Positions 11,293 to 33,506 of a stretch of 64,000 bases of DNA are shown here, one piece after another. The stretch comes from Malachius bipustulatus (taxonomy: Eukaryota > Arthropoda > Insecta > Coleoptera > Melyridae). The first letter of the stretch is position 1, and the number at the start of each line of letters is the position of its first letter. The notes under the pieces are model-generated. The model ran no database searches. It worked only from the letters and a program-made list of their open reading frames with translations, and was not told the DNA's origin. The DNA lies in contig OU342630.1 of the NCBI GenBank assembly GCA_910589415.1, positions 87,168,186 to 87,232,185 of the forward strand, read 5' to 3'. The position numbers and the translations under genes are program-made.

Positions 11293-11929
11293 ATTGGAAT
11301 GTCATATAACATTATTTGTTAAATAAAACGAATTTTATTATACCAATTTTTATGAGTCGTTAAACGTACATTTTAAAGATAGAGTGTAGTTTTCCATTTT
11401 CGAAATACTCAAAAAACTGTTCGTCCACAATAACAACCACCACACTATAGCGACCAGCTTCATCCCGTATGTACCCCCAGGGATATTATGCGTGATATAT
11501 TCCATACTAAGCCAAACAAATAGCAGGAATTTTCAACTTTTAATTTCCGCCCGGCTAACGACTTTACTTTATACCTGTCTTGGGGGGATCGTGGCAGAAA
11601 TCACGCGTCGTATGCAGTTCTGCCGGAGGCTATTTCGGCGGCAGGCATTAGGCCTAAGCACCGCGCCTCCGAGCATCAATCTTCCCTCAGCTGCCCGAAG
11701 TTCCGGTTTCATTACTGGAGAGATCCGTCTTCTGGCTCGGCCCGGATCAACCTCATTGTCTTCTTCTGTGCTTGTTCCTCCGCCTCCGATTGTCCGTAAG
11801 CCGTCTCACCGATGGAGCTAGAAGGTCACTTCGTTTAATGTCAATTATTATTAACAGGCAATAAGAGAAAAATTAGCACATTTTAATTCCTTTTTGATTT
11901 TCGTAATGATAATTATAATTTTGGAAACT
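11293..11929. other. GC-richer stretch, no gene recognised
   Basis: About 11570-11820 is GC-rich inside AT-rich flanks, and a 109-codon + ORF (11492-11821) runs through it. The peptide is rich in S, P and R with no known domain. A conserved non-coding element or a UTR is as likely as coding sequence. Confidence 0.3.
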
Positions 11930-12813
11930 ATACAGGGTGTCCCAGCTTATTCGAAGCGGTCTCTGTAGGCCAAACGATTGATTTTTTCCAAAAATTTTTT
12001 GCAAATTCAAGTACAGGATCACAATGGCCATAATTTAAAATTATTTTGGAGTATACAGAGTGTCCCATATGACAGTGGCATATCAAAGGTATGTTTTTTT
12101 AAATGGAATGCTCCTATGTTATTGCATTTTTAGATTGTCTGAGAAGAGAAAATAAGATTTACTTTTACAGTTGGTGTTTAAATTCAGAAGTTTTTGAGTT
12201 ATAAACAAGTGAAAATCGTCATTTTTCAAGTTCAAGCCCCTGTACAACGAAAACGGCTAAAGATAGAGTAAAACGGCTTACATGTCCCTATTTTAACTTT
12301 CCATGTACTATCCTATGGTATAGAAACATTTGTACTTTCTTTGATTTTTTTATTTGTCGACGCGTGGAGAAATCTCAGAATTTTTCAAATTTTTTATCAC
12401 CCTGTATAAACATTTGATCTATATCATTGGATAGTACATGAAAAAGTAAAATAGGGACATGTAAGCCGTTTTTCTCTATCTTCAGCCGTTTTCGTTGTAC
12501 AGGGCTTTGAACTTGAAAAATGACGATTTTCACTTGTTTATAACTCAAAAACTTCTGAATTTAAACACCAACTGTAAAAGTAAATCTTATTTTCTCTTCT
12601 CAGACAATCTAAAAATGCAATAACATAGGAGCATTCCATTTAAAAAAACATAACTTTGATATGCCACTGTCATATGGGACACTCTGTATACTCCAAAATA
12701 ATTTTAAATTATGGCCATTGTGATCCTATACTTGAATTTTCAAAAAGTTTTTTGGAAAAAATCCATCGTTTGGCCTACAGAGACCGCTTCGAATAAGCTG
12801 GGAGACCCTGTAT
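11930..12813. mobile_element. Foldback element B (CAGGGTGTCCCAGC ends)
   Basis: The left end TACAGGGTGTCCCAGCTTAT and the right end ATAAGCTGGGAGACCCTGTA begin arms of over 400 bp that are inverted copies meeting near 12370. Inside, ACTTGTTTATAACTC and ACATGTAAGCCGTTTT pair with their complements. It is highly similar over its full length to 32627-33506, and its core resembles that of element A. No credible protein is encoded. Confidence 0.88.
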
Positions 12814-13168
12814 AATTACAAAAATGTAAATATGGATATCACAAAGGATATTGACTTAAGTTGCGGAGATAATCTTCATAGAAGCATATCAGTAGACAGA
12901 TCGTCTGCAAATAAAATATCTGAGTGTTCTTCATATGTATCTCCCTTTACTGCAGATTTTAAACATCTATACTTACATGGTTCTAAAAATCCATCTCTCA
13001 ATATGGGCAACTTTCTTATTTTGCCAGATACAGAGTCGGTTAAACGGGCAAGGTTGGCACAATTTGATGCTTATTAAGAATCGAGAACAAAATTTTTATT
13101 AATTTTAGCTATTAAGTACTGAAATATGCTGAGAAAGCTGAAAAGTGGAAATTTCTTATTTCATTTTT

Positions 13169-16295: not shown

Positions 16296-16472
16296 GAACG
16301 ATCAAACGAACTTACCTGAAGTGAAGTTCGATCGTAATTATATGAGGCGTTCAGTCCGAATATATCACGATGTAGTACGCGCTTCTCCTACTACCATGCA
16401 CAAGGTTAAAAGATAAAAAGAAACAAATCCCGTCACCCCTACCCTCACCTGCCCGTCGAAGGGAACTCTCAT
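16296..16472 (-). repeat. DIRS 3' inverted terminal repeat with 40-bp terminal extension
   Basis: 16336-16472 is the inverse of 21452-21589, including GGCGTTCAGTCCGAATATAT and GGGAACTCTCAT. Outside it, 16296-16335 is absent from the other terminal repeat. It reappears as a perfect inverse at 16553-16592, inside the internal complementary region. Confidence 0.9.
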
Positions 16473-16519
16473 TTCGTTTGAAGATTGTTTTACGACTGGG
16501 CCAATGGGTACGGGTGGGT

Positions 16520-16635
16520 GTGATATATTCGGACTGAACGCCTCATATAATTACGATCGAACTTCACTTCAGGTAAGTTCGTTTGATCGTTCAATTATAT
16601 TTCGGCGTTCAGTCCGAATATATCACGATGTAGTT
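16520..16635 (-). repeat. DIRS internal complementary region
   Basis: It consists of the complement of the 3' terminus (TGATATATTCGGACTGAACG ...), then the 40-bp extension (16553-16592), then a copy of the element's 5' terminus (AATTATATTTCGGCGTTCAG ...). This is the sequence expected at the joined ends of a circular DIRS intermediate. In the accepted DIRS1 model such a region templates completion of the ends. Confidence 0.85.
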
Positions 16636-16911: not shown

Positions 16912-18192
16912 CTAATCACTTACTTCCTCGAGAACTGTTTGTAAAAATGTTACAGTACTCTTGACTGGTCTGTTATAAAACTTTGCAAAAGAATTGGACT
17001 GTTCTGTCCAGCCAGCTGCATTTTTGATAGTATCTAATGATAAACCTCTCCTCAGTGCTGCCGAGGTAGAGGCGTGTCTCGTCGAATGTGGTTTAAATAT
17101 TGACACGTCAACTCCTGCAGCTTGTAGTGTGTCTTTAACCCATCGACTTAGTGACTGTGTGGTGGCTGGACCATGCGGTTTTGCGTATGTCAAAAACAAG
17201 GGGCTGCAGTTCGGCGATCTTAAGTCCCGAGTTGTCTTCAGGTATATTTTAATTAAGGATGCAACACATAAATTTGGATTACCATCAAAAAAGGGTAGGT
17301 CCAAGTTAGGCTGTGATCTGTTTGGTGCAGAAGTTTTGATGAAATCTGAAATGAAGATCTTTATGCCAGAGTCTGATATTTGTATATTCTTGCACTTGAT
17401 AAGCGAAAGAGTTTGCATTCTTTGACCTGTTGCTAATGCTAGTAGGGTCACCAATTTTCGGGAAAGTTGTTTTAAGTTGTCGTTGGGCATTTTCTGCAAA
17501 TAACTAAGGACTGGTTGTGGGTCCCATGTGACATCGTACTTTGGCCGAGATGGCCTTAAGCGGAATATTCCTTTCAAAAATCTCTTCAGATACGGATCGG
17601 TGCCTATCTTATTTGATACAACCAAAGCCAAAGCTGCCCTATGGGAATTGAAGGAACCATACTTATTGTTTTTCGAATCCAATAATGTTTGAAAAAATGT
17701 TATGACCTGTGGCGTTTCTCCTTGAAATGGTGAGATATCACGGTTACTACAGAATTCCCACCACAGTTTTAATGAACTGTTATACTGCTTAATTGTAGAA
17801 ACAGCTAGAGATCCAATCATTGTTTCGACTGCATTATCCGGTATTCCTTTTCTCCTAAAGGCTTCCCTGATAACCTCGCGGCCACCAGGGTAAGGTTTTC
17901 CGATAAAGGGTGTTGGAGACTGCTGTAAGGAGAATACAATAAATAAGGTTCCGGTTTGAAGAACAAGGGTTCGCCAACAATTAGTTTGGTGAAAAGTGGA
18001 TACCATGGTTGGGCTTGCCAAAAAGGGACTACCAGAATACCAGCTGCCTTTTCGGCACAAATTTTTTGAAGTACCCGGAGTATCAATGAAAACGGAGGAA
18101 ACGCATAAAAGTAAAAGAAGGACCAGTTCACTGTGAATGCATCCACAGCTTCCGATTTTTGATCTCTTAGCCAAGAAATGTATCTGTGGCAC
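16912..18192 (-). CDS. DIRS tyrosine recombinase (integrase)
   Basis: Frame of 426 codons, open to 18192. The first codon of the open frame there is GTG, so the true start is unknown and could involve frameshifting or an internal ATG. The enzyme would catalyse site-specific recombination of the circular DNA copy into the genome. An N-terminal SAM-like domain probably covers about residues 115-215 (around AVSTIKQYNSSLKLWWEFC). The catalytic set is visible: R258 in ATGQRMQTLSL, H369-x-x-R372 in HSTRHAS, W395 in the usual H/W position, and Y406 in AKFYNRP. The frame ends about 40 residues past R372 of the active site, as usual for the family. It overlaps the RT-RNase H frame by 376 bp in a different frame, so residues 1 to about 100 may not be translated as recombinase. 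No stop or frameshift breaks the conserved domain. Confidence 0.92.
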   Translation of the reverse strand: MPQIHFLAKRSKIGSCGCIHSELVLLLLLCVSSVFIDTPGTSKNLCRKGSWYSGSPFLASPTMVSTFHQTNCWRTLVLQTGTLFIVFSLQQSPTPFIGKPYPGGREVIREAFRRKGIPDNAVETMIGSLAVSTIKQYNSSLKLWWEFCSNRDISPFQGETPQVITFFQTLLDSKNNKYGSFNSHRAALALVVSNKIGTDPYLKRFLKGIFRLRPSRPKYDVTWDPQPVLSYLQKMPNDNLKQLSRKLVTLLALATGQRMQTLSLIKCKNIQISDSGIKIFISDFIKTSAPNRSQPNLDLPFFDGNPNLCVASLIKIYLKTTRDLRSPNCSPLFLTYAKPHGPATTQSLSRWVKDTLQAAGVDVSIFKPHSTRHASTSAALRRGLSLDTIKNAAGWTEQSNSFAKFYNRPVKSTVTFLQTVLEEVSD

Positions 18193-19748
18193 TTATGATT
18201 TTCAGCCGAGGCGAACAGATCTATATCTGGATAACCAAAATTACCAACAATTTTCTCAAAGGCACTCTTACTCAGTGACCATTCCGTCTCGGGGAATAAC
18301 ATCCGCGAAGCTCGGTCAGCTTGCCAATTATCGCTAGAACTTACGTATGAAGCGAAGATCCACAGATCTCGCTCCTCACACCATTGCCAAATTAACCTCG
18401 CCAAGTCATTTAGTTTTGGAAACTGGATGCTGCCCATTTTGTTTACGTAGGCGAGGGCTGTGGTATTGTCTGTCCTTATTAGGATATTGACATTCCTTAG
18501 ATATCTCGCGAAACATTTCAAGCCGTAAAAAATGGCTTGGAGTTCCAGAAGGTTTATATGATTATCTTTATGTACATCCTTCCACCAACCATACGTACTT
18601 TCACCACCGCTAGACGCACCCCAGCCAGTTAGGCTAGCGTCGGTGTAAATCTCAAGCTGGAATTGATCTTTTCTAAATTCGTTTGACGTCCAATCGATAT
18701 GTGATTGCCACCAAAGTAAATCGGGAAGAATATCCTGCGAAAGTTTCATATTCGCGTCATAGTTTCCCGAACTTTTACATAGCGCAAGAAATTTCTCGCG
18801 TTCAAATCGCTTAGTATATAACCAGCCATATTTTACTGCTGGACAAGCTGACGTAAGGATACCTATGAATTGAGCCAACTTCCTAATTTGACAAAACTTC
18901 CGCCCTTTGAAGTAGTTGATCCAAGATTGAATCGTTTTCCGTTTTTCGTTCGGTAATTCGATCGACATTTTCTGAGAATCGAATATGAATCCCAAAAACT
19001 TACACCTTGTTTTGGGGGTAAGTACAGACTTTTCATAATTAATTAGAAATCCTAGCGATACTAGCAATTTAATTGTCAGTTTTACATAACGGGTACACTC
19101 TTCCTTTGAATTAGCTATAATTAAAAAATCGTCAAGATAATTTACGCATGAGACGCCTTTACAGCGTAAGTATCTCATTAGTGGGCTCATAAGTTTAGTA
19201 AAAGTGTACGGAGCGGATGCTAGTCCGAACGGCAGGCATGTAAACTCATATAATTTGTTGTTAAAGGAAAAACGTAAGTATTTCCTATCTTCCTTACTTA
19301 TCGGGAGCATATAATATGCTTCCGATAAGTCAATTGAAGCAGCATAGGAGCCCTTATGCATGAGTTTCATTGCTGTTCTGGCATCCTCCATCTTAAAGTG
19401 GGGGGCATCCACAAATACATTTAGTTCCTTAAGGTTTAAAATAAAACGTTTTTTGCCGTTAGATTTATCGGCCAAGAATATTCTAGAGAGGAACTGGCCA
19501 GGTTGAGAGTTGCACCTCTCTATGACACCTAATTTAGCCAACCGTTCCACTTCTTCGGAAATAAACTTGGTGTTCGAGAGTGAATGTTTACTTACTGGAT
19601 ACCGCCTTTGAATAAAGGTATTGGTAAAAGGAAGCTTGTATCCCTGCACCCAGTTTAATATTACTGGATTTGAAGTTATTTTCAACCACTCATCATAAAA
19701 GAATTGAAGGCGACCTGCATAATTTTTTAAAATACTCACCGGTTTCAC
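17817..19748 (-). CDS. DIRS reverse transcriptase-RNase H polyprotein
   Basis: 643 codons. RT spans about residues 60-265, with motif A at SIDLSEAYY (D140), the CLPFGLASAP box at 171-180 and the YLDD catalytic pair at 204-207. RNase H spans about 363-485, with the four acidic residues visible: D370 (YTDAS), E402 (LLELQA), D427 (RTDNTT) and D478 (NWQADRAS). Residues about 490-640 contain the aromatic segment YAFPPFSLILRVL found after RNase H in DIRS pol proteins. A Dam-like methyltransferase often occupies this position, but I could not confirm its motifs. The frame begins with GTG overlapping the gag stop (GTGA) and is open further upstream. A ribosomal frameshift or termination-reinitiation is therefore more likely than a free ATG start. 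Confidence 0.93.
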   Translation of the reverse strand: MKPVSILKNYAGRLQFFYDEWLKITSNPVILNWVQGYKLPFTNTFIQRRYPVSKHSLSNTKFISEEVERLAKLGVIERCNSQPGQFLSRIFLADKSNGKKRFILNLKELNVFVDAPHFKMEDARTAMKLMHKGSYAASIDLSEAYYMLPISKEDRKYLRFSFNNKLYEFTCLPFGLASAPYTFTKLMSPLMRYLRCKGVSCVNYLDDFLIIANSKEECTRYVKLTIKLLVSLGFLINYEKSVLTPKTRCKFLGFIFDSQKMSIELPNEKRKTIQSWINYFKGRKFCQIRKLAQFIGILTSACPAVKYGWLYTKRFEREKFLALCKSSGNYDANMKLSQDILPDLLWWQSHIDWTSNEFRKDQFQLEIYTDASLTGWGASSGGESTYGWWKDVHKDNHINLLELQAIFYGLKCFARYLRNVNILIRTDNTTALAYVNKMGSIQFPKLNDLARLIWQWCEERDLWIFASYVSSSDNWQADRASRMLFPETEWSLSKSAFEKIVGNFGYPDIDLFASAENHKCHRYISWLRDQKSEAVDAFTVNWSFFYFYAFPPFSLILRVLQKICAEKAAGILVVPFWQAQPWYPLFTKLIVGEPLFFKPEPYLLYSPYSSLQHPLSENLTLVAARLSGKPLGEKEYRIMQSKQ

Positions 19749-21277: not shown

Positions 21278-21451
21278 TTTCTGAAGACAAATGCTAAATA
21301 GAAAATTAAGCCTGAAACAATGAGATTATTATGTCTACTTACAGCTTTGATATAAGTTGTTTGGCACTTGTTTTGCTACAAATTTCCTAAACACGTATAC
21401 ACTGTCTGCGTGAGCGACGTGCGACCTTGCACATGGAGCACAAGAAACACT

Positions 21452-21589
21452 ATGAGAGTTCCCTTCGACGGGCAGGTGAGGGTAGGGGTGACGGGATTTG
21501 TTTCTTTTTATCTTTTAACCTTGTGCATGGTAGTAGGAGAAGCGCGTACTACATCGTGATATATTCGGACTGAACGCCGAAATATAATT
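21452..21589 (-). repeat. DIRS 5' inverted terminal repeat
   Basis: Inverse copy of 16336-16472 with small differences at the extreme end (CCGAAATATAATT here, complement of AATTATATGAGG there). It lies directly upstream of gag on the minus strand and presumably holds the promoter. Confidence 0.9.
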
Positions 21590-22938: not shown

Positions 22939-23088
22939 GCTTCTTATTTTGAAATCGTAATTGATTCCGGGCTGTTGCACCGTGGTCCATGGAGATTTGC
23001 TTCGTTGGTTGGAGCAAATGTTGGCCGAAGCAAATCTTCGTGGACCACGGCACAACATCCCTCAATCAATTACGATTTCAATAGAAGC
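22939..23088. repeat. 150-bp palindrome
   Basis: Arms of about 65 bp (22939-23004 and 23026-23088) share GAAATCGTAATTGATT, CCGTGGTCCA and AGATTTGCTTCG with their complements, around a 21-bp loop. Confidence 0.8.
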
Positions 23089-23179: not shown

Positions 23180-23192
23180 GTTACCTGTGTGT
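23180..23192 (+). repeat. Target-site duplication, left copy
   Basis: GTTACCTGTGTGT here matches 23515-23527 exactly. The two copies bracket the ribozyme-bearing insert. Confidence 0.6.
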
Positions 23193-23514
23193 TTTATAAT
23201 TATTTTTATTGAACCACTTATTTGATTATATAATATATTTGATGAATTTTATTGGGATTTAGGTTCTAATTTAAATTTGCCACTAAAGATTCTTTACAGA
23301 ATAGATACAACTTCCAAATTTCGTATAGCATGTGTGGTTTAGAGCTGACTGATATGATATGCTGATGAGTCCATAATAAGGACGAAACGGTACCGTCCAT
23401 CTCTTCAGTCTTCTCCTCGCATGCTGTACGAAAGTTTTTCTAATTTGTTCTGTAAAGAATCTTTAGTGGCAAATTTAAATTAGAACCTAAATCCCAATAA
23501 AATTCATCAAATAT
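23193..23514 (+). mobile_element. Hammerhead-bearing hairpin element of about 320 bp
   Basis: The arms 23236-23301 and 23448-23513 are perfect inverse copies over about 66 bp (TATTTGATGAATTTTATTGG ... TCTTTACAGAA). Inward they continue as a less perfect helix into the ribozyme. The outer left segment 23193-23235 is AT-rich and reads as an A-rich tail on the minus strand (AATAAAAATAATTATAAA). A 13-bp direct repeat flanks the unit. Together this suggests a small retroposed or hairpin element. No protein is encoded. Confidence 0.65.
23317..23440 (+). ncRNA. Type I hammerhead ribozyme
   Basis: All core elements are in order. CTGATGA is at 23362-23368. Stem II is GTCC/GGAC (23369-23372 with 23380-23383), closed by a 7-nt ATAATAA loop. 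GAAA is at 23384-23387. Stem III is very short: A87-U96, C88-G95 and G89-C94 (last digits of the coordinates), with a GTAC loop. The cleavage triplet GTC is at 23395-23397. Stem I starts ATG/CAT, has an internal loop (TATGAT facing CTCT) placed where natural type I ribozymes make their tertiary contact, continues GACTGA/TCAGTC, and then CGTATAGCATG/CATGCTGTACG. Very short stem III is known from hammerheads in animal satellites and Penelope-like retroelements. Cleavage activity is inferred, not shown. Confidence 0.9.
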
Positions 23515-23527
23515 GTTACCTGTGTGT
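23515..23527 (+). repeat. Target-site duplication, right copy
   Basis: GTTACCTGTGTGT, identical to 23180-23192. Bases from 23518 are also the left terminus of the next inverted-repeat element. Confidence 0.55.
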
Positions 23528-24072
23528 AACTTGAACCAGGGGCGTACGATAGATAGGGGTCCAGCTTGTCTACCTCCAATTTTTACGCCACTGGAAAATT
23601 TTGCTTTTGACAAATTTTTTAAAATATCTTCAAAATCTCGACCTATTTTCTACATAAAGTCGATAAGGTTTGTTATGTAAAATCTCAACAGTTTTTGAGA
23701 TACATATGTGTCTACAAGTTATAGGTATCTTTCGTCAATGTCTTTCAACTATTGGAAAAATTGACAAATTTGACGTGGTGCTACTTCTTCCTCAGACTCA
23801 TCGACCACTAAAAATTCGGCCATGCAAATATTACTGATCTTTTGCCTATCCGTTTAGCCACAATAGACCCTGGTCGCAGTGGAGGAGCCGTAACTCGTAA
23901 CCGACCCACTCACTAAGCAACTAAACTAATAATTACTTATTCAATTGTACATACATAATCTCAAAAACTGTTGAGAATTTACCTAACAAACCTCATGCCC
24001 ATTTTGTAACAAACATTACACAAGTTGGACCACTATCTACCCTACGTCCCTGGTTAAAGTTACACACAGGTG
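23518..24072. mobile_element. Inverted-repeat element with ACCTGTGTGTAACTT ends
   Basis: The left arm starts ACCTGTGTGTAACTTGAACC. The inverse of the right end is ACCTGTGTGTAACTTTAACC. Alignment resumes internally (AGGTTTGTTATGTAAA against AGGTTTGTTAGGTAAA, and TCTCAACAGTTTTTGAGAT). The left arm is longer because of a gap in the right. The hammerhead element appears to have inserted into its left tip. Confidence 0.7.
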
Positions 24073-32025: not shown

Positions 32026-32626
32026 ATTTCTTTTATAACACCTGCATTTCGAAAACGATGCGTTTGCAGACCCATGTTAATATGAACTTTTTTCTTGAAA
32101 TAAGTCGTTGAATCACCTGCTTAATTTTGTACATGTTGGTAGTTAACACTATAATTTTTAAATTTTCTAACTATCAGAGTTTGTCACAGTTTCAGTATCC
32201 TAGGCAATGGCCGCCTTATACAACACATCAGTGTTCATGTGTCCAAACACAACGTAAGATGGATCATGCACATTTACCGCACAGATTACCGTTGCCCGGC
32301 TAGCAGTAAAAACGATCCCGGTAAACTAAACTAAGGTAATGAAACCGCCCGGCTTGGAGGGTGCATTTGTCTTATGCGGATACATCCTAGCCTCCAGCTC
32401 TGCAAAACATACAAGTGTCTTGCATACAAATACAAAACGCGCCCAACTCGAGCTGCTCCTCCTACGCTTACGAGAGGAGGATTATGGACGCCTGCTTACA
32501 GTGGGAACTAATTTAGTATGCAGCTTTGTCTTTACAAATACCACGTTTCTACAGTGTATAGTAAAACCTTATATTAATTTGAGAAATAATTTTTCTGCTT
32601 CAGTGACCATAATAATCATAATATAT
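32026..32626. other. No gene recognised
   Basis: A 108-codon + ORF (32339-32665) runs into the left end of the next mobile element. Its peptide has no recognisable domain, and overlapping a transposon terminus argues against a gene. Confidence 0.4.
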
Positions 32627-33506
32627 ATACAGGGTGTCCCAGCTTATTCGAAGCGGTCTCTGTAGGCCAAACGATGGATTTTTTTCAAAAAATTTTTGCT
32701 AATTCAAGTACAGGATCACAATGGCCATAATTTGAAATTATTTTGGAGTACAGAGTGTTCCATATGAGAGTGGCATATCAAAGTTATGTTTTTTTAAATG
32801 GAATGCTCCTATGTTATTGCATTTTTAGATTGTCTGAGAAGAGGAAATAAGATTGGCTTTTACATTTGGCGTTTAAATTCAGAAGTTTTTGTGTTAAAAA
32901 CAAGTGAAAATCGTCATTTTTCAAGTTCAAGGCCCTGTACAACGAAAACGGTTCAAGATAGAGAAAAACGGCTTACATGTCCCTATTTTACTTTTCTATG
33001 TACTATTCTATGGTATAGAAACATTTGTACTTTCTTTGATTTTTTTATTTGGCGACGCGTGGAGAAATCTCAGAATTTTTCAAATTTTTTATCACCCTGT
33101 ATAAACATTTTATCTACATTATAGGATAGCACATGAAAAGTTAAAATAGGGACATGTAAGCCGTTTTTCTCTATCTTGAACCGTTTTCGTTGTAAAGGGC
33201 CTTGAACTTGAAAAATGACGATTTTCACTTGTTTATAACTCAAAAACTACTGAATTTAAACACCAACTGTAAAAGCCAATCTTATTTTCTCTTCTCAGAT
33301 AATCTAAAACTGCAATAACATGGGAGCATTCCATTTAAAAAAACATAACTTTGATATGTCACTGTCATATGGAACACTCTGTATACTCCAAAATAATTTT
33401 AAATTATGGCCATTGTGATTCTGTACTTGAATTTTCAAAAAGTTTTTTGAAAAAGTCCATCGTTTGGTCCACAGAGACCGCTTCGAATGAGCTGGGACAC
33501 CTGTAT
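32627..33506. mobile_element. Foldback element C, second copy of the 11930 family
   Basis: The left end TATACAGGGTGTCCCAGCTT and the right end AGCTGGGACACCTGTATA (one C lost from CACCCTG) enclose inverse arms of over 400 bp meeting near 33070. It aligns along its length with 11930-12813, so both derive from one family. The 108- and 93-codon ORFs inside are products of the palindrome. Confidence 0.88.

Follow-up and report, generated by a model that had tools for sequence, protein, structure and literature searches.

The window, that is, the whole stretch of 64,000 nucleotides from Malachius bipustulatus that was analysed, carries at 23193-23514 a single 322-bp insertion bracketed by a 13-bp direct repeat, its target-site duplication (TSD). 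The insertion is made of two pieces of a 571-573-bp repeat unit that is present elsewhere in the genome, and positions within this unit are given on a ruler (M) corresponding to a real copy, L011:2631-3201, in which the L numbers denote individual loci. Its features are the following:

23180-23192, no strand: left TSD copy, GTTACCTGTGTGT, 13 bp, direct repeat of 23515-23527
23193-23301, minus strand: left half, M571 to M463, the unit's 3' end in antisense
23193-23234, minus strand: 42-nt tail, M571 to M530, left end only
23235-23301, minus strand: left arm, 67 bp, reverse complement of the right arm
23298-23301, no strand: head-to-head junction, 4-nt microhomology AGAA
23298-23514, plus strand: right half, sense unit piece M313 to M529, tail-less end
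23362-23397, plus strand: type I hammerhead core, predicted cleavage after 23397
23448-23514, plus strand: right arm, 67 bp
23515-23527, no strand: right TSD copy, 13 bp
23518-24071, no strand: MITE-like element, hit by the insertion in its left terminal repeat

When the two flanks are joined, they yield a terminal repeat that resembles, apart from a few mismatches, the one at the right end of the MITE-like element (23518-24071), and therefore the 322 bp represent an insertion into this element. The two halves are truncated at M463 and M313, with a 4-nt overlap, and it is because of these truncation points that the ribozyme is found in the right half only and that the arms (23235-23301 and 23448-23514) measure 67 bp. 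An earlier note on this DNA had described identical inverted arms of 66 bp; their identity was borne out, with zero mismatches over 67 bp each rather than 66, and is due to both arms having been copied from the same 3' region of the unit. The direct repeat at 23180-23192 and 23515-23527 had been absent from that note, as had the 42 extra bases found at the left end only.

A complete hammerhead core had also been described, and it was found at 23362-23397, with cleavage predicted after 23397 as had been proposed. The suggested covariance search with the Rfam Hammerhead_1 model gave a match at 23359-23400 on the plus strand with 25.3 bits (E-value of 5.4e-4 when 411 bases were searched and of 0.085 when the whole window was searched); however, this score lies under the gathering score of 34, and the default Rfam scan listed no match. 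The L011 unit, with 28.1 bits, likewise falls below this threshold, and the ribozyme pattern had no match in IMG/VR. The imperfect pairing between arm and core observed in the window is native to the repeat unit present elsewhere in the genome, a point likewise missing from the earlier note.

Copies of the unit, their ends and their junctions

The 544-Mb assembly (52 contigs) contains 479 exact copies of the 35-nt core, 219 forward and 260 reverse, and none of the reversed control, so that the other genomic copies to be looked for were indeed present. The previous claim of a mobile element is supported as well. A search with the 322-bp sequence, in which the best 40 of 1622 candidates were scored, listed 28 other loci, all of which were inspected; with the window they form a similarity-ranked set of 29 insertions, which are among the most similar copies. 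Since this ranking is biased towards the truncation points of the window, the clustering of truncation points was not interpreted, and 13 further places, the first unread one per block of eight among 100 listed core matches, were added by rule in order to reduce the bias.

All 29 insertions are built from one 571-573-bp unit, often repeated in tandem (for example, in L011 and L028). The unit contains the core at M377-412, a 3' tail at about M530-571 and a TATA-like box at M231, and it is non-coding, with 32% GC and a longest stop-free stretch of 68 aa. A reverse transcriptase or GIY-YIG endonuclease frame was sought in the unit and none was found; therefore, the unit is not itself a Penelope-like element (PLE). 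At least one core is present in each of the 29 insertions, and the hammerhead motifs are identical in 59 of 60 cases, an identity that is not independent proof of function, since the loci were picked by similarity.

Two-sided structures, composed of two 5'-truncated copies placed head to head, antisense on the left and sense on the right, account for 26 of the 29 ranked insertions, and on both sides the unit's 3' end faces outward; the three others (L057, L059 and L063) are one-sided. The first 100 core matches (of 479) form 71 clusters, 53 of them with a single core; neighbours within 2.5 kb in this set were head to head in 16 cases, tail to tail in none and in tandem in 13. Arm lengths and ends vary among copies, and no terminal inverted repeat is constant among them. 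The 26 loci with clear bounds are the 29 less L009, L018 and L022, and in 24 of them TSDs of 11-17 bp (mean 13.5) were identified. A GC content of 14% in the TSDs, versus 35% in the window, indicates AT-rich targets, and random pairs of places shared a 10-mer in 3 of 2000 trials. No TSD of at least 10 bp was found in L025 and L059, nor one of at least 9 bp by a wider search in L009, L018 and L022, whose bounds are unclear, and the TSD of L013 lies inside a short repeated sequence and is of uncertain length. It was also observed that L009:1298-1830 and L018:3470-4001 share more than 500 bp with 92% identity beyond the same tail point, perhaps owing to another element at the same spot or to a common source that included the flank.

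In all 26 two-sided ranked loci, exactly one outer end carries the 3' tail of about 40 nt, and in the TSD table the tailed ends fall at M567-574 and the tail-less ends at M525-537. The ends of L009, L018, L022 and L025 were taken from BLAST, with the tail visible to M568 in L009 and L018 and to M556 in L022, and the tailed end of L013, which abuts an A-run, was assigned by separate reading and not by script. An apparent absence of the tail in L018 and L022 was rejected, since TA-flanked insertions lie within it, and the tail of L058, to judge from a split match, is probably interrupted by an insertion as well. The rule-picked places gave the same picture: each of the six two-sided ones with both ends visible (L072, L073, L076, L079, L081 and L083) has one tail, five with a TSD of 9-15 bp assigned by script and L073 with one further out, recognized by eye. 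One-sided copies were always tail-less in the ranked set (3/3), but this generalization was abandoned because, among the rule-picked ones, L071 is tailed (L074 and L078 are tail-less); four rule-picked places (L075, L077, L080 and L082) were left unclassed.

Head-to-head junctions were mapped in 20 of the first 21 loci, L019 being left out, and all 20 differ from one another and have unequal truncation points, up to about 390 nt apart in L021 (M493/M103). Overlaps of 1-4 nt were observed at seven junctions, some of which are expected by chance, and filler of 1-32 nt at 11, that of L028 being a copy of adjacent sequence; the L017 junction has an overlap of 14 nt and the L018 junction one of 0. 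A single end among the 40 mapped, in L013, falls within one base at M413, directly downstream of the predicted cleavage site, and its tie to the predicted cleavage is only suggestive.

The raw difference rates were 0.43% within an insertion and 1.8% between insertions, in alignments that included some running past junctions. An initial claim of identity among the units of an insertion went too far, since the cleaned table revealed differences. Units within a single cDNA differ at family-recurrent variants in L013 (M416) and L020 (M506), and therefore the template of these two cDNAs was no single homogeneous circle, unless gene conversion or template switching followed. The halves differ at recurrent variants in L021, L025 and L058, and variants private to the insertion occur in both halves of L016, L023, L024 and L062, which points to a common source of the halves. 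Out of 52 private-variant calls at sites covered by at least two pieces, 10 were common to all pieces (three of them being L011's own reference letters) and 42 were not; many of the latter are single changes or part of one deletion (L060), a pattern to be expected from later mutations or from errors in copying.

Relation to Penelope-like elements and retrozymes

The genome is rich in head-to-head PLE arrays, with at least 150 matches in a GIY-YIG search (150 of 775 candidates scored) and open frames of up to 921 aa; among the listed matches, many frames measure 823-855 aa and stand in tandem arrays of about 3.3 kb. Neighbouring listed matches within 8 kb were oriented minus-plus in 23 cases, plus-minus in 2, plus-plus in 33 and minus-minus in 14, which corresponds to 23 head-to-head versus 2 tail-to-tail and 47 tandem arrangements. 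Four of the seven head-to-head pairs examined resolve (L031/L032, L066, L069 and L070), and in all four just one of the two ends bears a tail, some 30-40 nt long; the ends of L065, L067 and L068 do not resolve. A clean TSD, of 13 bp, is found in L066, and AT repeats obscure those of the other resolved pairs. A large head-to-head PLE array was also noticed outside the window, in G000:C11 (84009 bases), in which endonuclease matches recur about every 3.3 kb, first 6 on the minus strand and then at least 18 on the plus strand. About 12 kb to the right of the window, an endonuclease match at G000:C1:87243893-87244006 falls within an open frame of 498 aa; a hammerhead-like motif lies downstream of it, and its 3' region is unlike the unit.

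As described in the available parts of PMC3846280, PLEs may have inverted pseudo-LTRs (pLTRs), of which one optionally carries a 31-bp tail, and TSDs of 8-10 bp, which contradicts the assumption of the earlier note that direct repeats are the rule for these elements. PMC11167929, likewise available in part, reports that both strands are cut and extended and that reverse transcription begins at two neighbouring internal sites that flank the tail, the start sites of the one PLE studied in vitro not differing between strands. This anatomy and this biochemistry agree in kind with the insertions described here, in which inverted 3' ends with TSDs and one tail occur in 26/26 ranked and 6/6 rule-picked two-sided loci. 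Tandem units, a hammerhead and a tail of about 30-40 nt optional at one of the inverted head-to-head 3' ends are further common traits (PMC3846280 and PMC11167929, in part). In contrast to PLEs, the element has no reverse transcriptase or endonuclease frame, its hammerhead is fuller, with a short stem III, than the minimal type described for them in the accessible sources, and among 18 stretches taken from PLE loci, which sample part of the PLE families of this genome, none showed clear similarity to it, the highest z against simple shuffles being 3.3 (L049).

The element also resembles the metazoan non-LTR retrozymes, which are presented in the available portions of PMC7229834 and PMC7761336 as low-GC, non-coding tandem repeats with type I hammerheads and TSDs of more than 4 bp that co-exist with PLEs. 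Expression as linear and circular RNA is a further trait of retrozymes. The complete core is predicted to be of this type, the unit is low in GC (32%) and its stop-free stretches do not go beyond 68 aa, and 24 of the 26 clear-bounded loci have TSDs that exceed 4 bp. It differs in its size, since the reported unit is 150-450 bp versus 571-573 bp here, and in its head-to-head single-tail insertions, for which no counterpart was met in those portions. In the same papers, as far as available, mobilisation of retrozymes by PLEs is considered a likely possibility, with PLEs as strong candidate agents because of their co-occurrence with retrozymes and the hammerheads common to both.

Mode of insertion and competing readings

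The unit, its head-to-head orientation, two start zones, truncations, one tail, TSDs and varied junctions are seen in the DNA. The window feature is, with good probability, a single insertion of a retroelement of retrozyme type, non-autonomous and non-coding, with a PLE-type reverse transcriptase/endonuclease acting in trans. Such a protein would act on the unit RNA and cut both strands of an AT-rich target about 13 bp apart, and each cut 3' end would then prime cDNA synthesis at an internal position of the RNA, at M567-574 for the tailed end and at M525-537 for the tail-less end. Both cDNAs would usually stop early, their free ends would be joined via microhomology or short filler, and repair would create the TSD; the hairpin arms would correspond to the stretch covered by both cDNAs. 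The hairpin is thus explained because two partial copies were inserted head to head, and the PLE protein as agent, the order of the steps and the joining pathway are what we infer.

Several observations stand against this explanation. The top score of the unit against the PLE-locus stretches (z of 3.3) reveals no clear kinship, L025 and L059 have no TSD of at least 10 bp, in L009, L018 and L022, with their unclear bounds, the search was likewise negative, L062 has equal truncation points, three of the seven PLE pairs do not resolve, and the Rfam score is under the curated cut-off. Moreover, the TSDs of 11-17 bp are longer than the 8-10 bp published for PLEs (PMC3846280, in part), and the available part of PMC11167929 gives no strand difference in start sites in vitro.

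A broader proposal, which we advance tentatively and at slightly less than even chances, is that metazoan retrozymes are PLE parasites and that PLE-type integration employs two different reverse transcription start sites, one per cut end, leaving exactly one tail in a two-sided insertion. The template could be multi-unit RNA not cut by the ribozyme, because individual cDNAs contain units that differ in recurrent variants, and the ribozyme would then act elsewhere than in making a template circle. Retrozymes with tandem type I hammerheads and inverted PLE ends with a tail are already known; no description of their combination was found in the literature searched, with subscription papers mostly outside the search. 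The family carries a detailed PLE-like insertion signature at many independent sites, which constitutes structural evidence for the mobilisation of retrozymes by PLEs, and it documents, in nature, where copying started, which strand was used and how the ends were joined. It also offers a testable rule, a single tail in every two-sided insertion, which, in the available part of PMC11167929, is not seen as a strand difference in vitro for the one PLE studied.

It is rather unlikely that the insertions arose by LINE-type target-primed reverse transcription with twin priming, the ribozyme element being a LINE parasite and its likeness to PLEs convergent. LINE twin priming gives inverted insertions with a TSD and with microhomology at the inversion point, traits also observed here, and TSDs of 11-17 bp fit LINEs too. 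However, the two pieces joined by twin priming usually come from different parts of the RNA, whereas the two cDNAs here both begin within one 3' region, each at its own fixed zone, and their sequences overlap. LINEs are named beside PLEs as possible agents in the available text of PMC7229834. The PLE pairs of this genome have the same one-tail ends.

Self-priming, in which the antisense strand would fold back and copy itself into a head-to-head repeat, is a still more improbable source, although it is discussed for PLE inverted repeats and palindromes (PMC3846280, in part). In its simple form it was rejected because of the unequal truncation points at 20/20 mapped junctions (about 390 nt apart in L021, M493/M103), which often contain filler, and the outer ends begin at two different zones. 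A near-symmetric palindrome at L062:767-1757, with truncation points at M65/M65, is the single two-sided copy explained equally well by self-priming.

The earlier note had read the palindrome as one giant type I hammerhead and as a small mobile hairpin, that is, as a foldback element in which the hairpin itself is the mobile unit, and this is now very improbable. A complete core does lie between perfect arms, and three other loci match insertion positions 1-322 at 98%; however, these three and 25 more have different junctions or larger structures composed of the 571-573-bp repeat, which is the mobile unit. The giant-hammerhead reading is contradicted by the arms, which are two oppositely oriented occurrences of the unit's 3' end, and by the junction, which varies between insertions, as does the arm length, with no constant terminal inverted repeat. 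The foldback MITEs of this genome, with TACAGGGTG ends and a TA duplication, likewise have long inverted arms and a small size, but assignment to a foldback DNA transposon or MITE was rejected, since in the element described here ends and arm lengths vary and the TSDs are of 11-17 bp. Assemblers can produce false inverted repeats, but an assembly artefact or palindrome formation at the DNA level is equally improbable given the independent palindromes at many loci, each with its own TSD, and the empty site reconstructed inside the MITE.

Other elements in the window

Further long foldbacks are present elsewhere in the window. A hairpin at 22943-23087, about 100 bp to the left of the insertion, has 62-nt arms with 85% complementarity and no clear TSD. 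Among at least 120 relatives of the window's reverse transcriptase, the only four listed with a species name come from three beetles, which tentatively suggests a beetle host. Three related long foldback elements occupy 647-1507, 11907-12825 and 32604-33501, the first of which has TATACAGGGTG / CACCCTGTATA ends, which we take to be like those of Tc1/mariner-type MITEs. The segment 16290-21589 looks like a DIRS-type retrotransposon, with a reverse transcriptase frame at 17817-19748 on the minus strand, a frame resembling a tyrosine recombinase (putative) at 16912-18192 on the same strand, and split inverted repeats at 16346-16479 / 21445-21578 and 16593-16634 / 21548-21589.
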